A DNA stretch of 64,000 nt, taken from the NCBI RefSeq assembly GCF_003324165.1, contig NW_025407876.1:95371-159370 (forward strand). The letters run 5' to 3'. A program made the translations under genes and the position numbers. Shown here one piece after another: positions 22,176 through 55,821 of the stretch (the first letter of the stretch is position 1; each line of letters begins with the position of its first letter). Under the pieces are notes generated by a model that was given only the letters and a program-made list of their open reading frames with translations, searched no databases and was not told where the DNA came from. Source of the stretch: Naegleria lovaniensis. Lineage: Eukaryota > Heterolobosea > Eutetramitea > Acrasida > Naegleriidae.

Positions 22176-22625
22176 ATGGTAAAACACCTCACCCCATCAG
22201 CTTTGGCCATCATCATGTTGGCCATGCTTGCCTTGATGACGATTCATTGTGTGTCATGCAGTGAAGATCCAACAATTAAGAATCATCCGTCATCCGACGT
22301 TAATATCACTCCATGGACAGGAAAATGGATGAATGGATTCGTTCAGCTCTCTCCCAATTATTACAGTGCCCGAATTCTTAATGGAATGAGCTTTGATCAG
22401 GTGAAATTTGAATTTAAGGTTAGTTCAGGAAGTGCTGTGAATGTTGCTATTAAGAAGAATTCGGTACCTAAAAATTGGCAAGACGTGGATTACAGGTGGT
22501 TGGATGAGCAGTCTCAAGGATCATTCCTCTATTCTGGCATTGGCCCAAATGACATTTTCTATGTGATGATTAATGGAGCTTCAGCCACTTGGAATTTGTA
22601 TGCCTTGAATTTTGAATTCAATTAA
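22176..22625 (+). CDS. Secreted small protein, unknown family
   Basis: ATG 22176 gives 149 residues. The N-terminus MVKHLTPSALAIIMLAMLAL is a classical signal peptide ending near a small-residue site VSCS-ED, so the protein is probably exported. The mature ~118 residues contain no Cys and alternate polar/aromatic strands (GKWMNGFVQLSPNYYSARI; FEFKVSSGSAVNVAIKK; FYVMINGASATWNLYALNF), suggesting an all-beta fold such as a jelly-roll or lectin-like sandwich. No family is recognised. It lies tail-to-tail with the RCC1-BTB gene, 140 bp apart. Confidence 0.72.
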   Translation: MVKHLTPSALAIIMLAMLALMTIHCVSCSEDPTIKNHPSSDVNITPWTGKWMNGFVQLSPNYYSARILNGMSFDQVKFEFKVSSGSAVNVAIKKNSVPKNWQDVDYRWLDEQSQGSFLYSGIGPNDIFYVMINGASATWNLYALNFEFN

Positions 22626-37950: not shown

Positions 37951-38526
37951 TTAATAAACACACTTCTGACCAAACAATCTTGCCCATGAAAAAGCACCAG
38001 TTGGAATACAACGAGGACCCCATTCAGAATCTGCCATTTCTTCTGCGTCCTCTTCTTGCTCCTCTTCTTCAAAGGCATCTTCTTCGAGTAATTCCTTCCA
38101 AGCAGCACGAAGCACTTGTAATTCTTCCTTTAATTTCTGTTTCAACAATACGGAATCTTGTTTATGACGAGTTTCCATATTCTTTTTCATTCTTTCAAGT
38201 TGTTCGACAATTCTTAAATCAGCCATTTCGACCACACTCTTCTCAGCAGACTTTCGTGCTGGTTGAATCAACCAACGTTTGTTTTGACGTTGTTCTTGTT
38301 CGAGATTTTGACGAATGGTTTCAAGAGATGCATCGGTTGGTAATAAATCAGCTTGTGGAGATGATCTACGAAGTTGAGAAAGGAGATGTCTCAACTCGGA
38401 TGCAAGGTTGTTTTGTGGATGGACAGCTGGCAAAATATCATTTTGTTGTTGTGCATGTGAAACGTTCAAACTCAACAAGGCAATGATGACAAGTGCCAAA
38501 ACACTACACACGACGATGGATTTCAT
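37951..38526 (-). CDS. Secreted peptide precursor with C-terminal Cys-x15-Cys loop (paralogue A)
   Basis: ATG 38526 gives 191 residues with a clear signal peptide (MKSIVVCSVLALVIIALLSL, cleavage near SHA-QQ). A polar middle contains a Lys/Arg/Glu-rich predicted helix or coiled coil (ERMKKNMETRHKQDSVLLKQ), then a strongly acidic stretch (DAFEEEEQEEDAEEMADSE). The end is GPR-CIPTGAFSWARLFGQKC-VY. The only Cys residues after the signal peptide are the two bounding this 17-residue loop, so a single disulfide ring is likely. The same layout and motif recur in the gene at 43417-43839. The architecture recalls a prohormone or antimicrobial precursor, but no known family was recognised. A TATTTAAAG box lies about 40-50 bp upstream of the ATG on the minus strand. 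Confidence 0.78.
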   Translation of the reverse strand: MKSIVVCSVLALVIIALLSLNVSHAQQQNDILPAVHPQNNLASELRHLLSQLRRSSPQADLLPTDASLETIRQNLEQEQRQNKRWLIQPARKSAEKSVVEMADLRIVEQLERMKKNMETRHKQDSVLLKQKLKEELQVLRAAWKELLEEDAFEEEEQEEDAEEMADSEWGPRCIPTGAFSWARLFGQKCVY

Positions 38527-39066
38527 GTTTTTTTCAATGGTCTCAGGTTGATAACGTTGGAAGGACTCTTTAAATACGTGCTTTGAAATTTCTTGATGTG
38601 TTGCATGGTTGTGGGGGAGTTCAGTTCGTGTTTTCAGTTAATGGAAGTGACTGTAACCAATTCAACACTTCCAAATCTGGCTCTATTACAACAATGATTT
38701 GCTTGAACATCAACTTTGATTATCTATCTGATAATACAGTAGTTGATAAGATTCCTGTCCTATCCAACAATTAAAAAGACCAAGTCCTAAAGAAATATAA
38801 ATTGTCCAAAAAGTTGCAATCTTTCCATCTGTCATTGGTTTCAACTTACATTTGAAAACACAATTCTCGAGCGGTCGAATAATTGAATTATTGTGTCCAT
38901 CCTAGTTTTCCTCTCTTCCAGGTAAATTGAATTGTGATATTCTCCAAAATAAGGTTGGAAATCAATTGGGGTGATGAACATGCTGAGATTATGATATAAA
39001 ATTCTCCGTAAAGTGAACAGCTACTACTGGCTGAAAGTACTCCAACGAAAACAAGTGAACCATAAT
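38527..39066. other. Intergenic region, nothing recognised
   Basis: A 540-bp stretch between the secreted precursor promoter and the 3' end of the F-box/LRR gene. A 63-residue plus-strand frame (38583-38774) has no domain or supporting signal. No RNA gene was seen. Confidence 0.4.
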
Positions 39067-41078
39067 TCATATAAAATGTCTCTGCCTTTGTATGACAACT
39101 GTTGTCAAATATTTGAATGTGGATAGTCGTGTGGCAATCTCTTCGTATGTATTACCCCCAAATACATTGCCTTGCATGTCGAGCTCTTGCAACTTGGTCA
39201 AGTACTTGCTTGACACAATAGCAAGAGCTCCTGTTGATGAAATGCAATTACAGGACACATGTAACCCTATTATTGTTAGATCAAGCATGTGTGACAAAAA
39301 TCCATTGAAATAATAAACAACACACCTGTTAAGTTTTGCATCAATTCGCTTGAGGCTAATGCCACGGCACCCTTCGATCCAATATTGCAATTATTCAACC
39401 TTAAACATGTTAAATTCTTCATATTAACACTGTTGGCAATAGAGATTGCACCTTCGCTGTAAATTTGTGAATTCGCAAAAAGATTGAGATGTGTCAGATG
39501 TTTCAAATGCTCGCTCTCACAAAGAGAAGCAATTCCATAGTCACCAATCCCATTGCTACTCAGCTTTAAAATAGTTAAATTGCTCAAATATTTGCAGGAC
39601 GCCAATGCTGAGAGTCCTTGGTCGTTAATGGTATTGTAGTTTAAATTCAATTCTTTAACGTTCCTTAATAATCGAGAGCATTGGGACATCAGAACAGCTC
39701 CGTCAGACTTGATACCGTTCGAGCTTAGATCTAAAGATGTTAATTTTTCGAAATGATTTGTTGTGTACATGGATGAGTTAAATAATAACGTGCCGTCTAA
39801 TTGGTTCCCACTCAAATTTAAACTAGTTAAATTTACCAAATGTGGGCTCTGCATGAGTAAAGCACCCGCTTCTTCGCTGATTTTACAACAGATCAAATGA
39901 AGCGTTTTGAGACGTTTCGAACTTTCGTGGGCAGCTAATTCCTTTGCTCCATCAATGTCAATTGGAGAAAACGAAAGTTTCAAGTACTGCAAGTTGTGAA
40001 GTACGGTAATATCCTTCATAAACGCCTTGGGTACGACAAAACGAATCTGTATGGATAAGTGGGTTAAACTACTGTTGAAAACGCTGGAGGCAAACATTGG
40101 AAAGGGATGTTTTGGAGTTATTCTTGGCGAATAAACTCCTTCTAAATTCAATTGTGTTAAATTGCTCATAGAGTGACTTGTAATGAGCACCTTCACCCCT
40201 TCATCATCAATAGCATTTGCCAAATTTAACGTTCTAATGTTATTCAAATATTTGCTTGAGGCAATACATCTTGCACCCACAAGACGAACAGCATTATGGC
40301 TTAAATCCAATAGAGTAAGATTTTTCATGTTGCTACTTTGTGTCAAGCATTCAACATCGCAGGCTTGAATCTTATTATAAGCAAGATCCAATATTGTAAG
40401 ATTTGTCAGAGTCTTGCTATTTCCAATTGCTTCAACACTTGCTCTGGTGAGCGAATTTGTTTGTACATAAAGCTCGCGTAAGTTGGACATGACTGGGCTT
40501 GCTGCAATAGCTATTATTCCTTCATCTTCGAGTGTTGTAGCATTGACATTCAAACTTGTCAAGTTAGACATGAATTTACTCCATACGAGTGAAAAAATTG
40601 CACTGCAAGACGACGATGAAGATGAACTATTCCGACTGAAATCGTTTGCAGAAAGATCCAATGATTTCAAATTTTTCAAGTTTTCGCACGAGGCTAGAGT
40701 ATTCAGTTGATCTTGTCCCAATAAATTGTTGGATAAATTCAAGCAAGTAATATTGGAAATTGGAGGACTTAGGATAGAATAAATTCGTGTTGCTTCCGAA
40801 ATTGTTTCTGCTTCTCGTAGCTCTGTTGAAGGCTGTTGTTTGGTCATTGTTGAACCAGTTTCTGAAATTTCTTCTTCTTGCTCCAACAACAATGAATGAT
40901 GATCAACTCTCGGACGCAAACGACTCTTTGAAAAATCCAAATTCAAAGGCATTTCCATTACTTTCCCATACCACTGCTTGGAAACAAGCCTGCACACGAC
41001 AATAAGGCTTCGGTCTTCCACGTATTGAAAAATATGGAAAAGCATATCATCTGCAAAAAGTTCATCATGTTGGAGCAT
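39067..41078 (-). CDS. F-box protein with ribonuclease-inhibitor-type LRRs, 2 exons
   Basis: Exons 39326-41078 and 39067-39266 join across a 59-bp intron in phase 1 (junction QNLT-G-LHVS), giving 650 residues from ATG 41078. An F-box lies at residues about 5-50 (LFADDMLFHIFQYVEDRSL, CRLVSKQWYGKV). About 18 regular LRRs follow, many with the pattern x-L-T-x-L-x-L-S-x-N-x-[IL]-x-x-x-G-[AV] typical of RI-type repeats, for example LTLLDLSHNAVRLVGARCIA and LTHLNLFANSQIYSEGAIS. Near-identical repeats imply recent internal duplication. The protein is probably an SCF adaptor with a horseshoe ligand-binding surface. Confidence 0.85.
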
Positions 41079-41203
41079 TTTATTAGTAACTACAAAATAG
41101 AGTTTCAGTTTCTATTTTCAAGGATGACATGGGCGTGATTTATTCTGAATGCGGAGTTTGATGGAAGAAAACGTTGGGAAATCGGTTTATCATTAATTAA
41201 AAA

Positions 41204-43164
41204 ATGTTTCCAAATAATCATGGAGAGAGTTGTTATACCAACAACAACAACGACCAATATCAACAACAACAACAAAAACCACGGCCGTGTGCTAGAGTCA
41301 TCAACCAACATCATCAAGAAAGCAATGGTGTTACATACACGGACAATGAATTTTTAAATCTTGAGGATTTTCTGGTGGATGAGTCCAAATCACAACGGAA
41401 TGCAAATGATGACGGATATTCATCATTCAGTTCTGGACAACAAGTTTTAGGTTCATTCATTCATCGGGATGGAGATGGGAATGAACTCATACCATCGGGA
41501 CAACATTGGACAGACAATAATAACGACCCTCTCCAACACTTGCAGAGTTTCATCGGTAGCTTTATCATACCTTCGTTTTCTTCAAGTACAACTGCACAGG
41601 CTAATATCACTAGTAATAACGAGAGCAATAATGTAAATAATTTATCAAACAGTAGTGACGAGAACAGTTCGGAATTTTTTCCAATCGCTTGTGAACAGGT
41701 ATGCAATTAAGCATTTATTTATGGTAGTAGTAATGAATTTATTAAATAACATTATTTATGAAATGACAGTGCCGACAACAGCATCGAAGGTGTGATAAAC
41801 GATTACCAAAATGTTACTTGTGCACCCAACGAAAAGTTGAATGTGTCTATAGAGAACCTAGAAGAAACAAGAAAACCAATCATGATAACAATGTAAAGAC
41901 TCCAGAAAACTCCAGAAATCACTCATCGAACGTACACCAAAGAAATGTAAATAATCCATCGACCCATTCCATGAACCCATTATTCTCACCTTATCCTCTT
42001 GGGAAAAAGTCAGTTAATGAAGAGTTGAAAACTTCCGAGTTATTGAGCTCACGAGCTGTCTTTGATCTTTATTTTGATGTGGCATGTGAAGGCTATCCGT
42101 TGGTGTCACGAGAAGAATTGGAAAATTTTATCACACATTTTCCAAATTGTGATGATGTTGGAAATGACACTAACAAGTTGCAAAATTGTGAAATGTTTGC
42201 CATGTATTTTAGTGTTAGGGCATTGTGTGAATCTCGAAATGGATTGTTTGAACAATCAGAAAAAAGCATTCAAAAATCTAAAGATTGTCTTTCCAAAGTA
42301 TTTGATCGAACATCAATCACCGTAGCTGCAGTATATGCACATTTGGTAATGTATGAATTATACACTGGAAAGACAGAACAAGCCAAATTCTATTTTACAA
42401 TTCTCGACTTTTTATCAAAGAAATTATTTGCACCAGAAGACTCTGAGAGTGTTACTCCATCCCAACCAACTATTTATGAAAAGAATTTGGAAGTATGGAT
42501 CTATAGCTACAATGCTGCTCTAAAATTGGGTATTATAGAAGATTTCGATAAGGTATCTGTTGAAAATTTTTTGTCTTGCATTCCTGAAATATATTCTTTT
42601 TTTTGTCAAGAACCATTGCCTCAAGAATGGATTCAATTGATGACTAGCAAAGTGACACCTGAAAATTGTTTTGAGATTTGGAGCATTATTGAATTACTTG
42701 TGAATAAGTTCAAAAATATCGAAAAATCAGACATGCTTTCAATACCTGACACAGTGAATAGGCTTGAATTTGTTGAACCTCTTTATCAAATGATATTGGA
42801 CAGTTTGAGGATAGCAATATTGTCAAAATCTCAATCATCCATCACACGAGAAGTTATTGAACAGAGTGCACTTAGCATTACCAATCACACCGAAAATCCT
42901 CTTTACCCACTATTTCCAATTGATGTTGTGTTTTGTGTGAAACAAGCAGTCGAAAAACATTTAGAAATATGCAACTCCATACTACAACAGGGAGGGAATG
43001 ATTTTGTACATAATGGAGTCGACTATTGCAGCATTTTAAAAAAGGATTTACGTGCTTTCACTGTGATGAAACCAAAATTCAAAGCAGTGAACAAATGGAT
43101 TAATAACATTTCCTCTCGAATTGAGGAAATGATTGCCACTATTGAACGAGTCAAATTTCAATAA
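41204..43164 (+). CDS. Zn2Cys6 binuclear-cluster transcription factor, 2 exons
   Basis: Exons 41204-41698 and 41770-43164 (71-bp GTATGC...ACAG intron, phase 0) encode 629 residues. The splice creates a complete Gal4-type cluster: CEQCRQQHRRCDK followed by CYLCTQRKVEC. That is C-x2-C-x6-C-x6-C-x2-C-x6-C at residues 163-190, with the basic residues expected for DNA contact and a basic linker (REPRRNKK). The N-terminus is Asn/Gln-rich and likely disordered; the C-terminal ~380 residues are helical and could be the middle-homology or regulatory region. It is divergent from the F-box/LRR gene with 125 bp between starts. The family is abundant in fungi, so its presence in this lineage is notable. 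Confidence 0.88.
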
Positions 43165-43416
43165 TGCATGTTGACATTGCAATCTATATCTGGTTTGTAG
43201 CTTTGGATCTGAACATGGAGAATGTCACACTTCATGTTACAGTACTATAACATGCGGCTCCCATCAGCCATGAAATGACAGCGATCAAAACCTTGAGGTA
43301 CATCTACTATTATTGGACCACAGTTCTGGTGCTACTACCGAAATTATATCCAACGCTCATGAAATTGATGTATCATATTGCTCTCGTTTACTAATAACAT
43401 AATTTAAAATACATCA

Positions 43417-43839
43417 TTAATATCCAGTTCCTGTTCTGCATTGTTGTCCCATCAATCTTGCAAATGAAAACATTCCTGTAGGAACACAAGGACGACGACG
43501 TGCACTGTCAGACATTGGTACTTCTTCAAATTTTTCATCCATTGATTCCTCTTCAAGTACTTCCTCCAAAGCAGAATGAATGAGTTGTTTTACTCTGTTC
43601 AAGTGTTTTTTATGACGTTCTTTCAATTCATTTGTCTCTTCGTGAGTGAATCTTGCCAATGACCAATCTTCTTGTTCTTCAACATACTTGGGAAGACGAT
43701 TGTAGAGTGGTTTTATAGACCAATCTTGAGATCTATAAGCTTGTTCTTCAAGGTCATGACGTTTTGCATGAACTGAATGACCAGCACACATGCACCATAC
43801 TACTGCAAGCGCCAATACAACTGCGAAAAGTAATTTCAT
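43417..43839 (-). CDS. Secreted peptide precursor with C-terminal Cys-x15-Cys loop (paralogue B)
   Basis: ATG 43839 (MKLLFAVVLALAVVWCMCAG) begins a signal peptide with cleavage near VHA-KR; upstream in-frame codons to 43896 lack this character. The 140-residue product has repeated Trp motifs (QDWSIKP, EDWSLAR), a basic helical segment (ELKERHKKHLNRVKQLIHSA), an acidic segment (LEEVLEEESMDEKFEE), a tribasic RRR and the loop CVPTGMFSFARLMGQQC, then RTGTGY. The loop matches paralogue A at 11 of 17 positions (C-P-T-G-F-S-A-R-L-G-Q-C pattern). Both genes lie on the same strand about 5 kb apart. The RRR directly before the loop would suit proteolytic release. Confidence 0.76.
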   Translation of the reverse strand: MKLLFAVVLALAVVWCMCAGHSVHAKRHDLEEQAYRSQDWSIKPLYNRLPKYVEEQEDWSLARFTHEETNELKERHKKHLNRVKQLIHSALEEVLEEESMDEKFEEVPMSDSARRRPCVPTGMFSFARLMGQQCRTGTGY

Positions 43840-44164
43840 TGTTTTTTTGTTGTGAACGAGAAATGAGCGAGAAAGAGAACGTATGCAAAATAGCACTTGA
43901 TATTCTGTCCGTCAAAAGTCCTTTGAAATTGGTTGCATGGGTCATCTCGAGTTCGCTACATGTTGACACTGAAAGTTACAGTTCGGATAAAAATTTTCCA
44001 AACCTGTCTTTGATCTTGGATCTATCTGAAGATTCCAAACGAGTGATTGTCTGGACGCTGGACGCTTGTTGAGACAAGAGCGTCCAGAATAATTATTTAC
44101 AAAACCTTACAGTTTGAAACCCAATTATAATAGGACTTGTTCTGTTATAATTACATTTATGCAA
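43840..44164. other. Intergenic region, nothing recognised
   Basis: Between two minus-strand genes, 325 bp. It includes the promoter of secreted paralogue B. A plus-strand frame at 43764-44072 overlaps that gene antisense and is not supported. Confidence 0.4.
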
Positions 44165-45325: not shown

Positions 45326-45581
45326 TATGATGAAATTCAAATCAATACTATAAGTAATTTGGAGACCCTAGAACCTTGTTGATTGGACATTCAATTAGTT
45401 CATTATCTCGAAATTCAGAAAGTGTTACAAAAAAAATGCATACCTTCTTTTCTCATGATGAGGCTTGATGATTCAATGCCGAAAATAACCGAGAGACCGA
45501 TACTGATACGTGATGATAATTTTGATTCTCTTCAAATTTTGCACATGTAAAACACAGCTATTTTTCAAAATATTAAACAAC

Positions 45582-48500
45582 ATGATCATGATGAATCGGT
45601 TGTTTCGTGGTGCTTATGGTGCAGTGATAGGTCCTCATTTAGGAGTGATTATATTGGCATGTATGATGACGACAATCATCATGGGTGCAACACCAAGATC
45701 GGAAATGAAGCTCTCATCAACGGCAAAGGAACAATCATCAGCAGATTCCTACTGCACGGATCACACAACAAGCATAAACTGGGTATATTTTGTTGGGACG
45801 CCACAAAATCCATCATTGAGCAATATTTCTTGTACACTGAACAGGACAGAGCAAAATCCGTGCTGGTCTTTCAATGAAATTTTTACACATCTTTCAATAG
45901 ATATCCTTAACAGATTACCAAAATCAAATTCTACTGATTATGTATGCCTTAATTACACTGTAACCATCAATGTAGTCAGTGACATGGTTGAGAATAGAGG
46001 TCGGCGTACAGCTTGTTACAACAATCTTCCAGATGTTGATCTTACAGTGAACCGAGTGCATATTGCTTTGACAATTACGAGTACAGATGCTCTAACTCCC
46101 AAAGTCATCTCTTGCTTTAAAGAGGAGAGGCACATTCTTTCACATCCACCATTTCTATTGGAGCCTCAACCAATGACATCAATCATTATTGACAATGTTA
46201 AGGTTCACAATATGTTTTTGCGTGCTCATGGAATACGCCGTACAATTTTGCAAGACGTCATTATTCAGGACAACCATGTGAACACTGACTTTTTCAAAGC
46301 TGAACACTCCAAGCTAATTGATTCTTCAATCATTTTACCTGAAACAGATGAAGTATTTCTTGAAAATACGACATTCTCTGGCGACTTGCTGATCGATGGC
46401 TGTAAAACAGTTTACATCAATAACCTATGGTATCATGAGAACAATATGTCTCGTTTAAAATTTACAAACTGTAACACGGTGCTTATGGAGAACTCAAAAT
46501 TCCATATAGCACAACGTACTGCAATCATTTTTGAGACAACCATCAATGTTGCTATTTCGTCGTCAGAGTTCGAATACATACATACAGAGGATGGTGAAGA
46601 AGACGAGTACACAATCACGGTTTCCTTAGTATTTAACATGAAGATTTTAGGGAGCGTGTTTAAAAACAAGAAAGGAGGTGGATGGATCAAGATGGTTTCG
46701 GTAGGGAAAGTATTTGCAGCTCTGACAGCTTCTAACAACACTTGTACAAAAGCAGAAACTATCTTCTATTTCTATTTGTGCAAGATTGTTGAAATATCGA
46801 ATTCCTTGTTATCAAATAACTCCGCATCTCATAGTGGTGCAATGATTGTCATGAAATCAGATTCTGTCACTATAGGTAACACAATACTCGATGGAAATAC
46901 TGCTATCAAGAATGGTGCAATTTCTCTTGCAGAAATTTGTGACACAATTAGCGTTTATAGCTCAGTTTTTACAAATAATCATGCACTGAAAGGCAGTGGA
47001 GGAGCAATGTCGGTACTTGGAGGCAGAAACAAGATGTATCTGATGGACAACGATTTTTCAAGTAATGGAGCCAAAATATCAGGTGGTGCTTTGCATGCCA
47101 TGCATGTTCATCATCTGGAGATTAGTTTAACCACTTTTCAGAGAAACACAGTAGAATACATAATTCGTGACGACTCATCATTTTATCTTTCGAGTGGAGG
47201 TGCAATATCCTTGTTCAATTGCCAAGCGACAACAATTACGGATACCAAGTTTATCAACAATCAAGCAAACCGTGGTGGTGCATTATACACTGGAGATGCT
47301 ACAGCCATTAGCGATTCACTGTTCAAGAATAACTTTGCATTCGATACTGGAGGAGCAATATTCTATGCAAGTTCCTTTGGTAGTGAGTTTGATTATGTAA
47401 ACCAAACACTCCCAGTTTTATTGGACAATGTGTTAATGGAAGAGAATAGAGCCGCAATTTACGGCTCAAACATTTCATCACCAATTGTTTCCTTTTCAGC
47501 GTCCATTGTTGAAAAGATGACAGACGGAGGAATTTTCAAATATTATCCAGGAGAGAAAATGGTACTGCAATTCAATCACATGCTCGACAGACAAGGAAAC
47601 AATATTCCAGTGTTGTATGAGTTACCCTCAATCAAAATTTCAGATAACAACTTTGTGCTGGAAACAAATTATTCCAAGCACAAAGAAAACCTCATTGAAA
47701 TTCAAATAGCCATTCAACAAACGAGCACGGTTGATTTGACAAATTACCATGCACCAATTTCCATCAGCATTTCTTTTTCAGAAACGAATTTTTCTATAGT
47801 CATACCTTTTTTAATTGACGAATGTCCACAAGACTTTGTCGTCAGCTATGGCAAATGTGTGAGCGGATTTCCACTAAGCAAGGTCATTCCAGCCATCGTT
47901 GCAACATCTATTGTATTGACGTTTCTGGCCATTGTTGGAGGTGCCTTTATTTGTGTCTTTTGCGGTCTTTGCTCTTGGAAAATGATAAAAGTTGCAAGAG
48001 GTGTCTATGTAAGACAAAGATCTGAAAAAGAAATTGAGGAAAAATTATTACAACAGAATATACCAATTGAAGAATATGGTTCTGTGAACTCTGACGAACA
48101 TAATAGGTCAGCTGCAACTCACAACAATGATTACTATATCATTTCAGCTCACGAATTGAAAATTAAAAAGAAAATTGGAGAAGGCTCGAGTGGAAGGTAT
48201 GTAATGTCACGAACAAACATTTTATTAATTTCAAAATAACTTGTGAATCACTAACAGCGTCTACAAGGCCAAGTACAACATGATGGACGTTGCTGTGAAG
48301 AGTATTGTCAGGAGTGATGACACTCATGAAAATTTTGAAAAAGAAGTTATGCTCCTTGTGCAACTCAGACATCCTAATATTATCAGTTTTTACGGTATTT
48401 GCATTTCTGAAAGCCAAATGTGTATGGTCGTCGAGTTGGGCCAAAATGGAAGTTTGGAAGAAATGATTAAGGAAATGAAAAAAGGAAAGATGAAAATGAC

Positions 48501-49284
48501 ATTTAAAGAAAAATTGAAAATATTAATTGGAATATCGAATGGAATGAAATATCTCCATAGTATTCAACCCAAATGCTTGATTCACAGAGATTTGAAGCCA
48601 GGAAATATCATTCTTGATCATTCAAATACTCCCAAAGGTATGTGTTTCTATCAAGGGTATTTTGAATTTATATTTTTATTTTGGAATCAACATGACTTGT
48701 GTTTCGATGGAAAATACAACATACCAGTTTGTGATTTTGGTCTAAGTCGTGCTGTTTCCATTACCACCCAGACGAACTCTCTCACAGCCAACATTGGTAC
48801 GTTAATATACATGAGTCCTGAATTAATTCTCGAAGACGACAGCTCTGAAGAAAGAAGTAACAACAATTTACTGTTACTACGAGAAAACGCCACGAAAATA
48901 GACGTCTATTCATTTGCTATCATCATGTACGAATTATTATTTGAGGAGACACCATACTGGAACGAGAATTGTGAAAAGCTAAATTATTTTAATCATCACA
49001 ACAATGGTACGAGTTCAGAAAAGAAAATCAAAATGTTCAACTTGCTGTATCACGTTGCAAATAATGAGAAAAGACCATTGATTCCATTTTCCAATGTGGA
49101 TGAAATGTGTATTTGGTGTGAAAAATTCATGACCAACGATGACGCAACCAATGAAGATTTCTTAATTGGATTTGACATGTATATCAAATTGATGAAGCAG
49201 TGTTGGTCAACGAATCCCAGAGAAAGACCTTCTTTTGAAAGAATTCTTCTCAAATTGACTGACATTTTCAACATGGATCTTTGA
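45582..49284 (+). CDS. Receptor-like protein kinase with beta-helix ectodomain, 3 exons
   Basis: Exons 45582-48196, 48258-48637 and 48728-49284 encode 1183 residues. The first junction restores the glycine loop GEGSSGSVYKAKY; the second (90-bp intron, phase 1) restores TPK-VCDFGLSR. Because the second intron is a multiple of three with no stop, unspliced message would carry a 30-residue insertion. The N-terminus has a hydrophobic signal (GVIILACMMTTIIMGA). The ectodomain has repeated SSNGAKISGGALHA and NNQANRGGALYTG motifs of the right-handed beta-helix/POMP type. A membrane segment spans about residues 768-797 (IPAIVATSIVLTFLAIVGGA). The cytosolic kinase has VAVKSI, HRDLKPGNII, DFGLS and MSPELI and looks catalytically complete, TKL-like. 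The ATG at 45591 is an alternative start. Confidence 0.88.
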
Positions 49285-53986: not shown

Positions 53987-55821
53987 TTATTGTTGTTTCC
54001 TCTTTTCCTGTTGTACTAATGGAAGTTTCTTTCTCATGATGGATAACTTTTCAAACAAGGGCATCAAATGAATGAGGAATAAGGAAAAGAATCGAGAAGA
54101 TTTCCATGCAACATGGGGATCAATGAGCAAATCCTTAGAAACGTGTGGTTTTTGGGGAGTAGGGAATTTCTCTCCGACCACACTTGCCAATACATCTCCT
54201 ACTGGATATTTCATTGAGTCTTGTAATTGGATTAATTTAGCAAGCATATCACAGGATGAAGTCAATAATGGACCAGCTCCATATCTGGGTTGACCAAGTC
54301 CAACATAGTACAAGAACTTTTTGTGTGGAACAAAAATTCCAGTGTACAATTTTGGATATCCAAATTCACTCTTTTCTACAAATGGTTCGAGCAATGGAAT
54401 GGAAGTGTTATAACCAGTACAGCACACAATCAAATCGATTTCAACTTGTTCTCCGTTTTTGAACTCGATGGTTTTACCTCCTTTAAAGCGCAAAATGTCT
54501 CTGTGAGGTTGAATTTTTCCTAATTTCACAAATTGCAACAATTCAGAATTAATGGTTGGATGACATTCGAAAAGATTGTGATCTGGATTTGGTAAATTGT
54601 ATTCTTTTTGATAGTCAATTCCAGTAACTACGAGAAGAATGAGTTTAAACATTATTTGTTGGATAAAGACCGGAAGGAATGCTGGAATGAGCTCGACTGC
54701 TGGTTTTCCAAATAAGGTACGAGGTAAAAAGAAGTATCCTCTACGCATGGAAATGTGACTCTCAGCACCAAAGCGAGCAGCTTCAACAGCAACATCACAA
54801 CCACTGTGTGTTGTTGTTGTTGGATTGAAAAATTTGGTTTGGGGTTTCAATTCAAATGGTTGAAAAAAGGAATGACATTCAATTTCACACATGTCAAATG
54901 CCATTTACAATATGAACAAAATCAGATGCACAAAATATAATCCAATGACATACCTATTTCCAGCACCAATTACTAACACGCGGTGTCCCTTTAATTGTGA
55001 AGGCTCCTTATAATCCTTACTATGAATAATGTTTCCCGTAAATTGTTCTTGATTTTCATATTTAGGCATTCTTCGAGACCAATGATGTCCATTATTAATG
55101 ATCACTCCCTTATATACTCTTGAAAACGTTTGATCTCCTTGTTTAAATTCCACAACATAGGCATCTCCATTTTCAGAAATTTTTGTCACTTCTGTATTGA
55201 GTGCCAATCGTTCATTGATTCGATAATGTTGACAATAATCAAGAAAATATTCTAACATTTGTTTTGCCGATGGGAAATCGGGATATGAAGAAGGCATTGG
55301 ATAATCTTTCATTTCTGTAGTTTTTCTGCTGCTGATAATGTGAACCGTTTCATAAACTCCAGAAAACCAATTTCCTCCGATTTGATTGTTTACCTCTTGA
55401 ATATTCAAAATAATATATCATAATTGTACATGTTTATCATTATATTTGAAAAGTTTAAAAGAATAGGATTAAATATGTCGTTCACAAAATATTTAAATTA
55501 TTAAATTTCACACTTGTCATTGAATCATGAAAATACGAAAAACGTACCAACCACATCAAATGGAATACCATATCGAGTGAGTGCTGCACTTGTTGACAAT
55601 CCACTGAAACCACATCCGACAATTAGAATTTTCTTTTCAGTCTTTTCGAATGGTTTATCACAAAAGATTTCATCATACTTTTTAATGTCGTATTGATAGG
55701 GGAATTCGGATGGAGGACAATTGACAGGATCTGTCCAATAAAATACATAGTCTGTGAAAAACACCACAAAGAATGCAACGACAAGAATGGTGAGAACGAG
55801 TAACCAGATCCATAGAGACAT
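53987..55821 (-). CDS. Flavin-containing monooxygenase (FMO type), 3 exons
   Basis: Exons 55548-55821, 54954-55395 and 53987-54803 (introns 152 and 150 bp) encode 510 residues. The second splice restores GAGNSGCDVAVEAA, the NADPH-binding motif, through an AG-T codon. The N-terminus (MSLWIWLLVLTILVVAFFVV) is a membrane anchor, then comes the FAD motif ILIVGCGFSGLSTSAAL, the FMO motif FTGNIIHSKDY, and the C-terminal DLIVCCTGYNTSIP. FMOs oxygenate soft nucleophiles on N or S with NADPH and oxygen. The basic Lys/Arg C-terminus (RKKLPLVQQEKRKQQ) suggests a cytosolic tail with membrane retention, though the anchor could equally place the enzyme at the ER. Confidence 0.92.

Follow-up and report, generated by a model that had tools for sequence, protein, structure and literature searches.

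In a 64,000-nucleotide (nt) stretch of Naegleria lovaniensis DNA (NCBI RefSeq assembly GCF_003324165.1, contig NW_025407876.1, positions 95,371 to 159,370 of the forward strand), called the window below and numbered from its first letter, two genes on the minus strand, here named A and B, encode small proteins with signal-like N-termini that both carry a Cys-x15-Cys ring near the C-terminus. Judged from their sequences, A and B are paralogues, with a similarity far beyond chance. The reading that we prefer, and to which we give about an even chance, is that they are diverged paralogues of a secreted helical protein, small and apparently lineage-restricted, whose working end is a C-terminal disulfide loop. 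An earlier note on this DNA had described A and B as two genes on the same strand, and analysis of their open reading frames (ORFs) confirmed the strands and coordinates:

37951..38526, minus strand: gene A, secreted-type protein of 191 amino acids (aa), single open frame
43417..43839, minus strand: gene B, secreted-type protein of 140 aa, single open frame

Aligned by BLASTP, the two proteins match with an expectation value (E) of 2e-15 and 31% identity over 123 columns, and in an all-against-all comparison of the 124 window ORFs that start with ATG and have 60 aa or more, they are the sole pair with E up to 1e-4. The mature parts of A and B reach a local alignment score of 153, a level far above the best of 2000 shuffles, which is 74; here, the acidic composition lifts the real score and the shuffles alike. 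When the ring is left out, the score is 90, and none of 5000 shuffles scores higher than 79. The middle of the two proteins, which had been described as little conserved, is thus indeed diverged but not unrelated, and the pre-ring pieces R-x-x-LE...W-x-I-x-P and R-H-K are common to both. No third copy was found in the window, the next tblastn matches having only E 0.15 (query B) and E 0.44 (query A). A segmental duplication carrying the neighbours along was considered and rejected, as A and B form the only pair at this threshold among the 124 ORFs; the F-box/LRR, C2, and zinc-cluster genes nearby have no second copy at E up to 1e-4 among the window ORFs.

A 166-aa open frame lies antisense to gene A (37986-38486, plus strand) and is probably a by-product of A's codon pattern.

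The most conserved part of the two proteins is the ring:

37960..38010, minus strand: ring of gene A, CIPTGAFSWARLFGQKC, residues 173-189
43438..43488, minus strand: ring of gene B, CVPTGMFSFARLMGQQC, residues 118-134

Scanning all six frames of the window with either ring and allowing up to 9 of 17 substitutions returned only these two sites. Identical residues occupy 12 of the 17 ring columns, compared with 34 of the 117 aligned pre-ring columns, the signal being counted with the latter (Fisher p 0.0017). No 17-column stretch taken entirely from the pre-ring part of the A/B alignment has more than 7 identical columns. The earlier claim that both proteins share a ring near the C-terminus, more conserved than the rest, therefore stands. 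At 6 of the 12 identical ring residues, the codons differ. By a Nei-Gojobori style count, the proportions of nonsynonymous (pN) and synonymous (pS) differences per site are 0.207 and 0.719 in the ring, 0.415 and 0.536 over all aligned codons, and 0.457 and 0.464 before the ring, where a pN/pS near one may partly reflect misalignment. In rounded counts, nonsynonymous changes per site are 8/40 in the ring vs. 106/233 before it (Fisher p 0.0029). Since its pN is well below its pS, the ring looks constrained at the protein level. Beyond the ring, both proteins end with the same residue, Tyr.

Both N-termini look like signal peptides, in agreement with the earlier suggestion that the proteins are exported:

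38452..38526, minus strand: signal-peptide-like segment of gene A, residues 1-25 (N-terminal hydropathy rank 3 of 124 ORFs)
43765..43839, minus strand: signal-peptide-like segment of gene B, residues 1-25 (N-terminal hydropathy rank 6 of 124 ORFs)

The ranking covers the same 124 ATG ORFs, and some of those ranked higher are probably not genes. The signal call is based on hydropathy, and cleavage near residue 25 was placed by eye, after S-H-A in A and V-H-A in B. Cysteines are found at residues 7, 173, and 189 of A and at residues 16, 18, 118, and 134 of B. Because all cysteines other than the ring pair fall before about residue 25, the ring pair would be the only one left after the signal in each protein, exactly two cysteines in C-x15-C spacing, as had been noted before. 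Another small ORF in the window (149 aa, 22176-22625, plus strand) has a strong signal-like N-terminus; it has no cysteine past residue 30 and no Pfam match at E up to 10.

Between the signal and the ring, the charge along both proteins runs from basic to strongly acidic and turns positive again over the remainder that starts with the ring (+2), so that the basic and then acidic segments described earlier are borne out by the charge profile. AlphaFold2 models of A and B, each made from a two-row alignment (depth 2), contain a long helix in this part:

38023..38106, minus strand: acidic segment of gene A, residues 141-168 (lowest net charge over 15 residues, -10)
43504..43569, minus strand: acidic segment of gene B, residues 91-112 (lowest net charge over 15 residues, -7)
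38077..38226, minus strand: confident helix core of gene A, residues 101-150 (AlphaFold2, predicted local distance difference test (pLDDT) of 80-95 by block)
43555..43644, minus strand: confident helix part of gene B, residues 66-95, running from basic to acidic (AlphaFold2)

The modelled helix extends over residues 65-165 in A, with a block pLDDT of 54-72 over residues 61-100, and over residues 43-99 in B, with a block pLDDT of 85-92 over residues 61-90 and 72 over residues 91-100. The models are confident only in these single helices (predicted template modelling scores of 0.27 and 0.29). A four-residue helical turn is predicted at residues 126-129 in the B model and none in the A model.

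The earlier note had also compared the layout to that of a prohormone or ribosomal antimicrobial precursor and had placed RRR directly before the ring of B. The RRR is present, but a proline sits between it and the ring cysteine (RRRPC):

43489..43500, minus strand: RRRP directly before the ring of gene B, residues 114-117 (RRR at 114-116)

Proline at the P1' position is disfavoured by kexin- and furin-type enzymes. In A, dibasic pairs occur at residues 53, 83, 91, and 114, and none lies near the ring at 173. A dibasic-processed prohormone has a dibasic site beside the bioactive peptide in each member; here B has RRRP and A has no such site near the ring. As A lacks a dibasic site at the ring and B has RRR followed by proline, no common release mechanism is visible. 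Of the proposed layout, the signal-like N-terminus, the paralogy, and the more conserved ring hold, while a shared maturation site is missing. A prohormone or antimicrobial reading is possible, if weakly supported, and a model of release and signalling is not supported by gene A.

A short two-part block lies upstream of both genes:

38581..38608, minus strand: upstream block CCATGCAAC-N9-AATTTCAAAG, 54 nt before the ATG of gene A
43921..43940, minus strand: upstream block CCATGCAACCAATTTCAAAG, 81 nt before the ATG of gene B

In both cases, CCATGCAAC is followed by ATTTCAAAG within 20 nt, exact and in the same orientation, and with one mismatch allowed per half the window contains no further copy of the two-part block. 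Among 19,710 random pairs of 200-nt regions, 40 reached a chain of two exact blocks of this length. The block may be left over from the duplication, or it may be a control site common to both genes.

Searches for relatives of A and B covered Pfam, NCBIfam, PDB sequences, phage records, IMG/VR, and GTDB contigs, of which the DNA collections are prokaryotic or viral. In Pfam, searched at E up to 10 with the HMMER filters on (so that most matches above about E 0.1 are dropped), the best E was 0.091 for A and 0.053 for B, both under the family cut-off, and in NCBIfam the best values, 0.044 and 0.035, were likewise under the cut-off. Against PDB sequences, the whole proteins retrieved helical proteins with a best E of 0.045 (A) and 0.14 (B), neither significant, and the tail fragments retrieved no match. 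The possibility raised by the earlier note that the ring is part of a known domain is thus not borne out, with no match above threshold in Pfam or NCBIfam and none significant in PDB. A tblastn search of the phage records, with B as the only query, gave no match. In IMG/VR, 4 pattern stretches were found with query B, whose seed set included the end of B's ring, and 134 with the A/B alignment; in GTDB contigs, the alignment gave 587. None of these was confirmed, although ring-only relatives could be missed in the alignment searches of IMG/VR and GTDB because the seed patterns lay outside the ring. The full degenerate ring had 0 matches in GTDB contigs. A relaxed, partial ring pattern retrieved 4 loci from IMG/VR. 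Compared with the ring of A, they have 8 to 10 differences in 17 positions; none of the 4 has the cysteine of position 17, and one (L001) has a stop inside the 17 positions. Another (L003) has a cysteine at position 18 and no stop within the stretch shown, and looks, by a motif, like a phage terminase. All 4 were judged to be chance matches. The family is therefore new in the sense of being absent from the Pfam, NCBIfam, PDB, phage, IMG/VR, and GTDB libraries, as distinct from all databases. No description of the pair was found in the literature searched, which comprised titles, the starts of abstracts, and some passages; supplements, most subscription papers, and motif text were outside its scope.

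We compared A and B to several known systems. Natriuretic peptides (ANP, BNP, and CNP) come from secreted precursors whose 17-residue disulfide ring lies at the C-terminus or close to it, and the rings of A and B have the same Cys-x15-Cys spacing near the C-terminus. However, of the 9 fixed positions of the ring signature (D-R-I core), only 2 match, both of them the cysteines, and the ANP family model of Pfam matched neither protein in the search described above. Membership was rejected on these grounds, and the likeness is one of ring size only, in keeping with the earlier note, which had claimed no homology. Saposin-type pore formers of amoebae, the naegleriapores and amoebapores, are likewise small secreted proteins, as A and B are predicted to be. 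The saposin domain has six cysteines; A and B have two post-signal cysteines and no saposin match in Pfam, and membership was rejected. Granin-type sorting loops combine an acidic body with one disulfide loop, which is similar to the layout of A and B, except that the loop of A and B is C-terminal and no granin match was found in Pfam. The BRICHOS antimicrobial precursors (arenicin, alvinellacin, and capitellacin) are described in a passage of PMC4002450 as having a signal, a linker, a pro-region, and a C-terminal peptide. A and B resemble them in the signal-like start and the C-terminal, peptide-like ring, and differ in having no BRICHOS match in Pfam, no cysteines between signal and ring, and an acidic helical pro-region; BRICHOS membership was rejected on the first two counts. 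Lastly, the antistasin-like proteins of Naegleria and Willaertia are, in the part of PMC12482156 consulted, secreted proteins with cysteine-rich antistasin-like domains. They and the A/B pair would both be secreted, disulfide-bearing families of Naegleria, but A and B have no antistasin match in Pfam.

On the reading that we prefer, A and B would enter the secretory pathway via an N-terminal signal peptide, and each would form a long helix running from basic to strongly acidic and end in a 17-residue loop closed by its sole two lumenal cysteines. This loop would be the working end and bind one conserved partner, and the fast-changing helix and acidic linker may serve as a spacer, solubility tag, or pro-segment. 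We lean towards a loop presented on a helical stalk rather than cut free; of the two proteins, B is the likelier to release it. In favour of this reading are the paralogy, the ring-specific conservation with differing codons at half of the identical residues, the count of exactly two post-signal cysteines in each protein, the confident helix core in both models, and the common upstream block. Several observations weigh against it. The ring and tail have no confident fold, with a block pLDDT of 41-50 in both models; 5 of the 17 ring positions differ between A and B, so that the loop could be merely structural; and the selection estimates are rough, coming from two sequences only and from a gapped pre-ring alignment that is uncertain. 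No relative of A or B was found in any collection searched (prokaryotic and viral DNA, Pfam, NCBIfam, and PDB). As for the upstream block, it was spotted before being tested, its first half alone occurs at 3 places (the third at 54104) and its second half at 7, and a plain local alignment of the two 200-nt upstream regions is unremarkable, being equalled by 213 of 2958 random pairs.

The alternatives overlap in part with a presented loop. The boldest, which we hold to be rather unlikely, is that A and B are founding members of a new family of secreted disulfide-ring ligands in heterolobosean amoebae. The ring, released or displayed, would be recognised by a specific receptor or target, as part of a peptide signalling or defence system separate from both animal peptide hormones and saposin-type pore formers. 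It is unlikely, too, that A and B are antimicrobial or phagosomal precursors, in which an acidic pro-segment would keep a cationic ring harmless until its release, in the phagosome or outside, against bacteria. The acidic segment directly before a ring-to-end charge of +2 in both proteins and the RRR before the ring of B fit such a precursor, and a passage of PMC9928731 mentions antimicrobial peptides for the Naegleria phagosome. On the other hand, there is no cleavage site common to A and B, and the hydrophobic moments of the ring are low at strand-like periodicity (0.08-0.18) and 0.34-0.35 at helical periodicity. Moreover, antimicrobials usually have a higher charge than +2, and a ring conserved in a sequence-specific way is more typical of ligands than of peptides that lyse membranes.

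We doubt more strongly that A and B are structural secreted helical proteins, for example in a cell coat or cyst wall, where the ring would form a cross-link or serve as a docking tip. Each model does contain a long helix with a confident core, but the middle changes at a pN close to its pS (a rough estimate), unlike a tightly packed coiled coil, and no evidence for the cyst wall was seen in the titles and abstract starts of the literature searched. An autocrine or population signal, a prohormone whose released ring would bind a receptor and steer encystment or the change to the flagellate, would account for the order of signal, variable spacer, and conserved ring, for the conservation being specific to the ring, and for two paralogues with a common upstream block; it seems quite improbable given the missing dibasic site in A and the proline after RRR in B. 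Proprotein convertase and kexin terms are also absent from the titles and abstracts of the Naegleria papers listed for them, and kexin, subtilisin, and furin occur 0 times in the main text of one N. fowleri paper (PMC8296547). The idea to which we give the least weight draws on the granins discussed above. Disulfide loops of animal granins have been proposed as vesicle sorting or aggregation signals, and the loop of A and B, with its acidic neighbour, could similarly target the proteins to secretory or lysosomal vesicles without being the active product. An acidic helical body with one conserved disulfide loop is a similar layout to that of granins, and a conserved ring on a variable body is consistent with it; against it, the 64 kb contain just these two carriers of the loop. 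Should the ring prove to be a ligand, it would offer a concrete 17-residue molecule for testing peptide communication or secreted defence in a lineage far from animals, and even in an orphan family it is small, well delimited, and open to testing. As a structural tail and nothing more, it would make A and B one more case of a lineage-specific secreted protist protein.

With regard to the surroundings, the guanine-cytosine (GC) content of the window is 36.7%, consistent with the 35-37% that a passage of PMC9928731 gives for Naegleria genomes. The window includes SSRP1, F-box/LRR, and C2 genes. A spliced gene lies between A and B (41204-43164, plus strand, putative intron 41699-41769); once joined, its exons code for a Zn2-Cys6 cluster of the fungal type (Pfam Zn_clus, E 8e-10; junction checked), a regulator type best known from fungi. 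The SSRP1 and F-box/LRR genes and this spliced gene are signs of a eukaryotic origin. Two consecutive ORFs at 45513-49284 (plus strand) seem to be parts of a single receptor-kinase gene. Towards its end, the first has a hydrophobic stretch, and its matches are Beta_helix (E 1.8e-9) and Chlam_PMP (E 3.7e-8); the second matches a protein kinase (E 1.7e-39).

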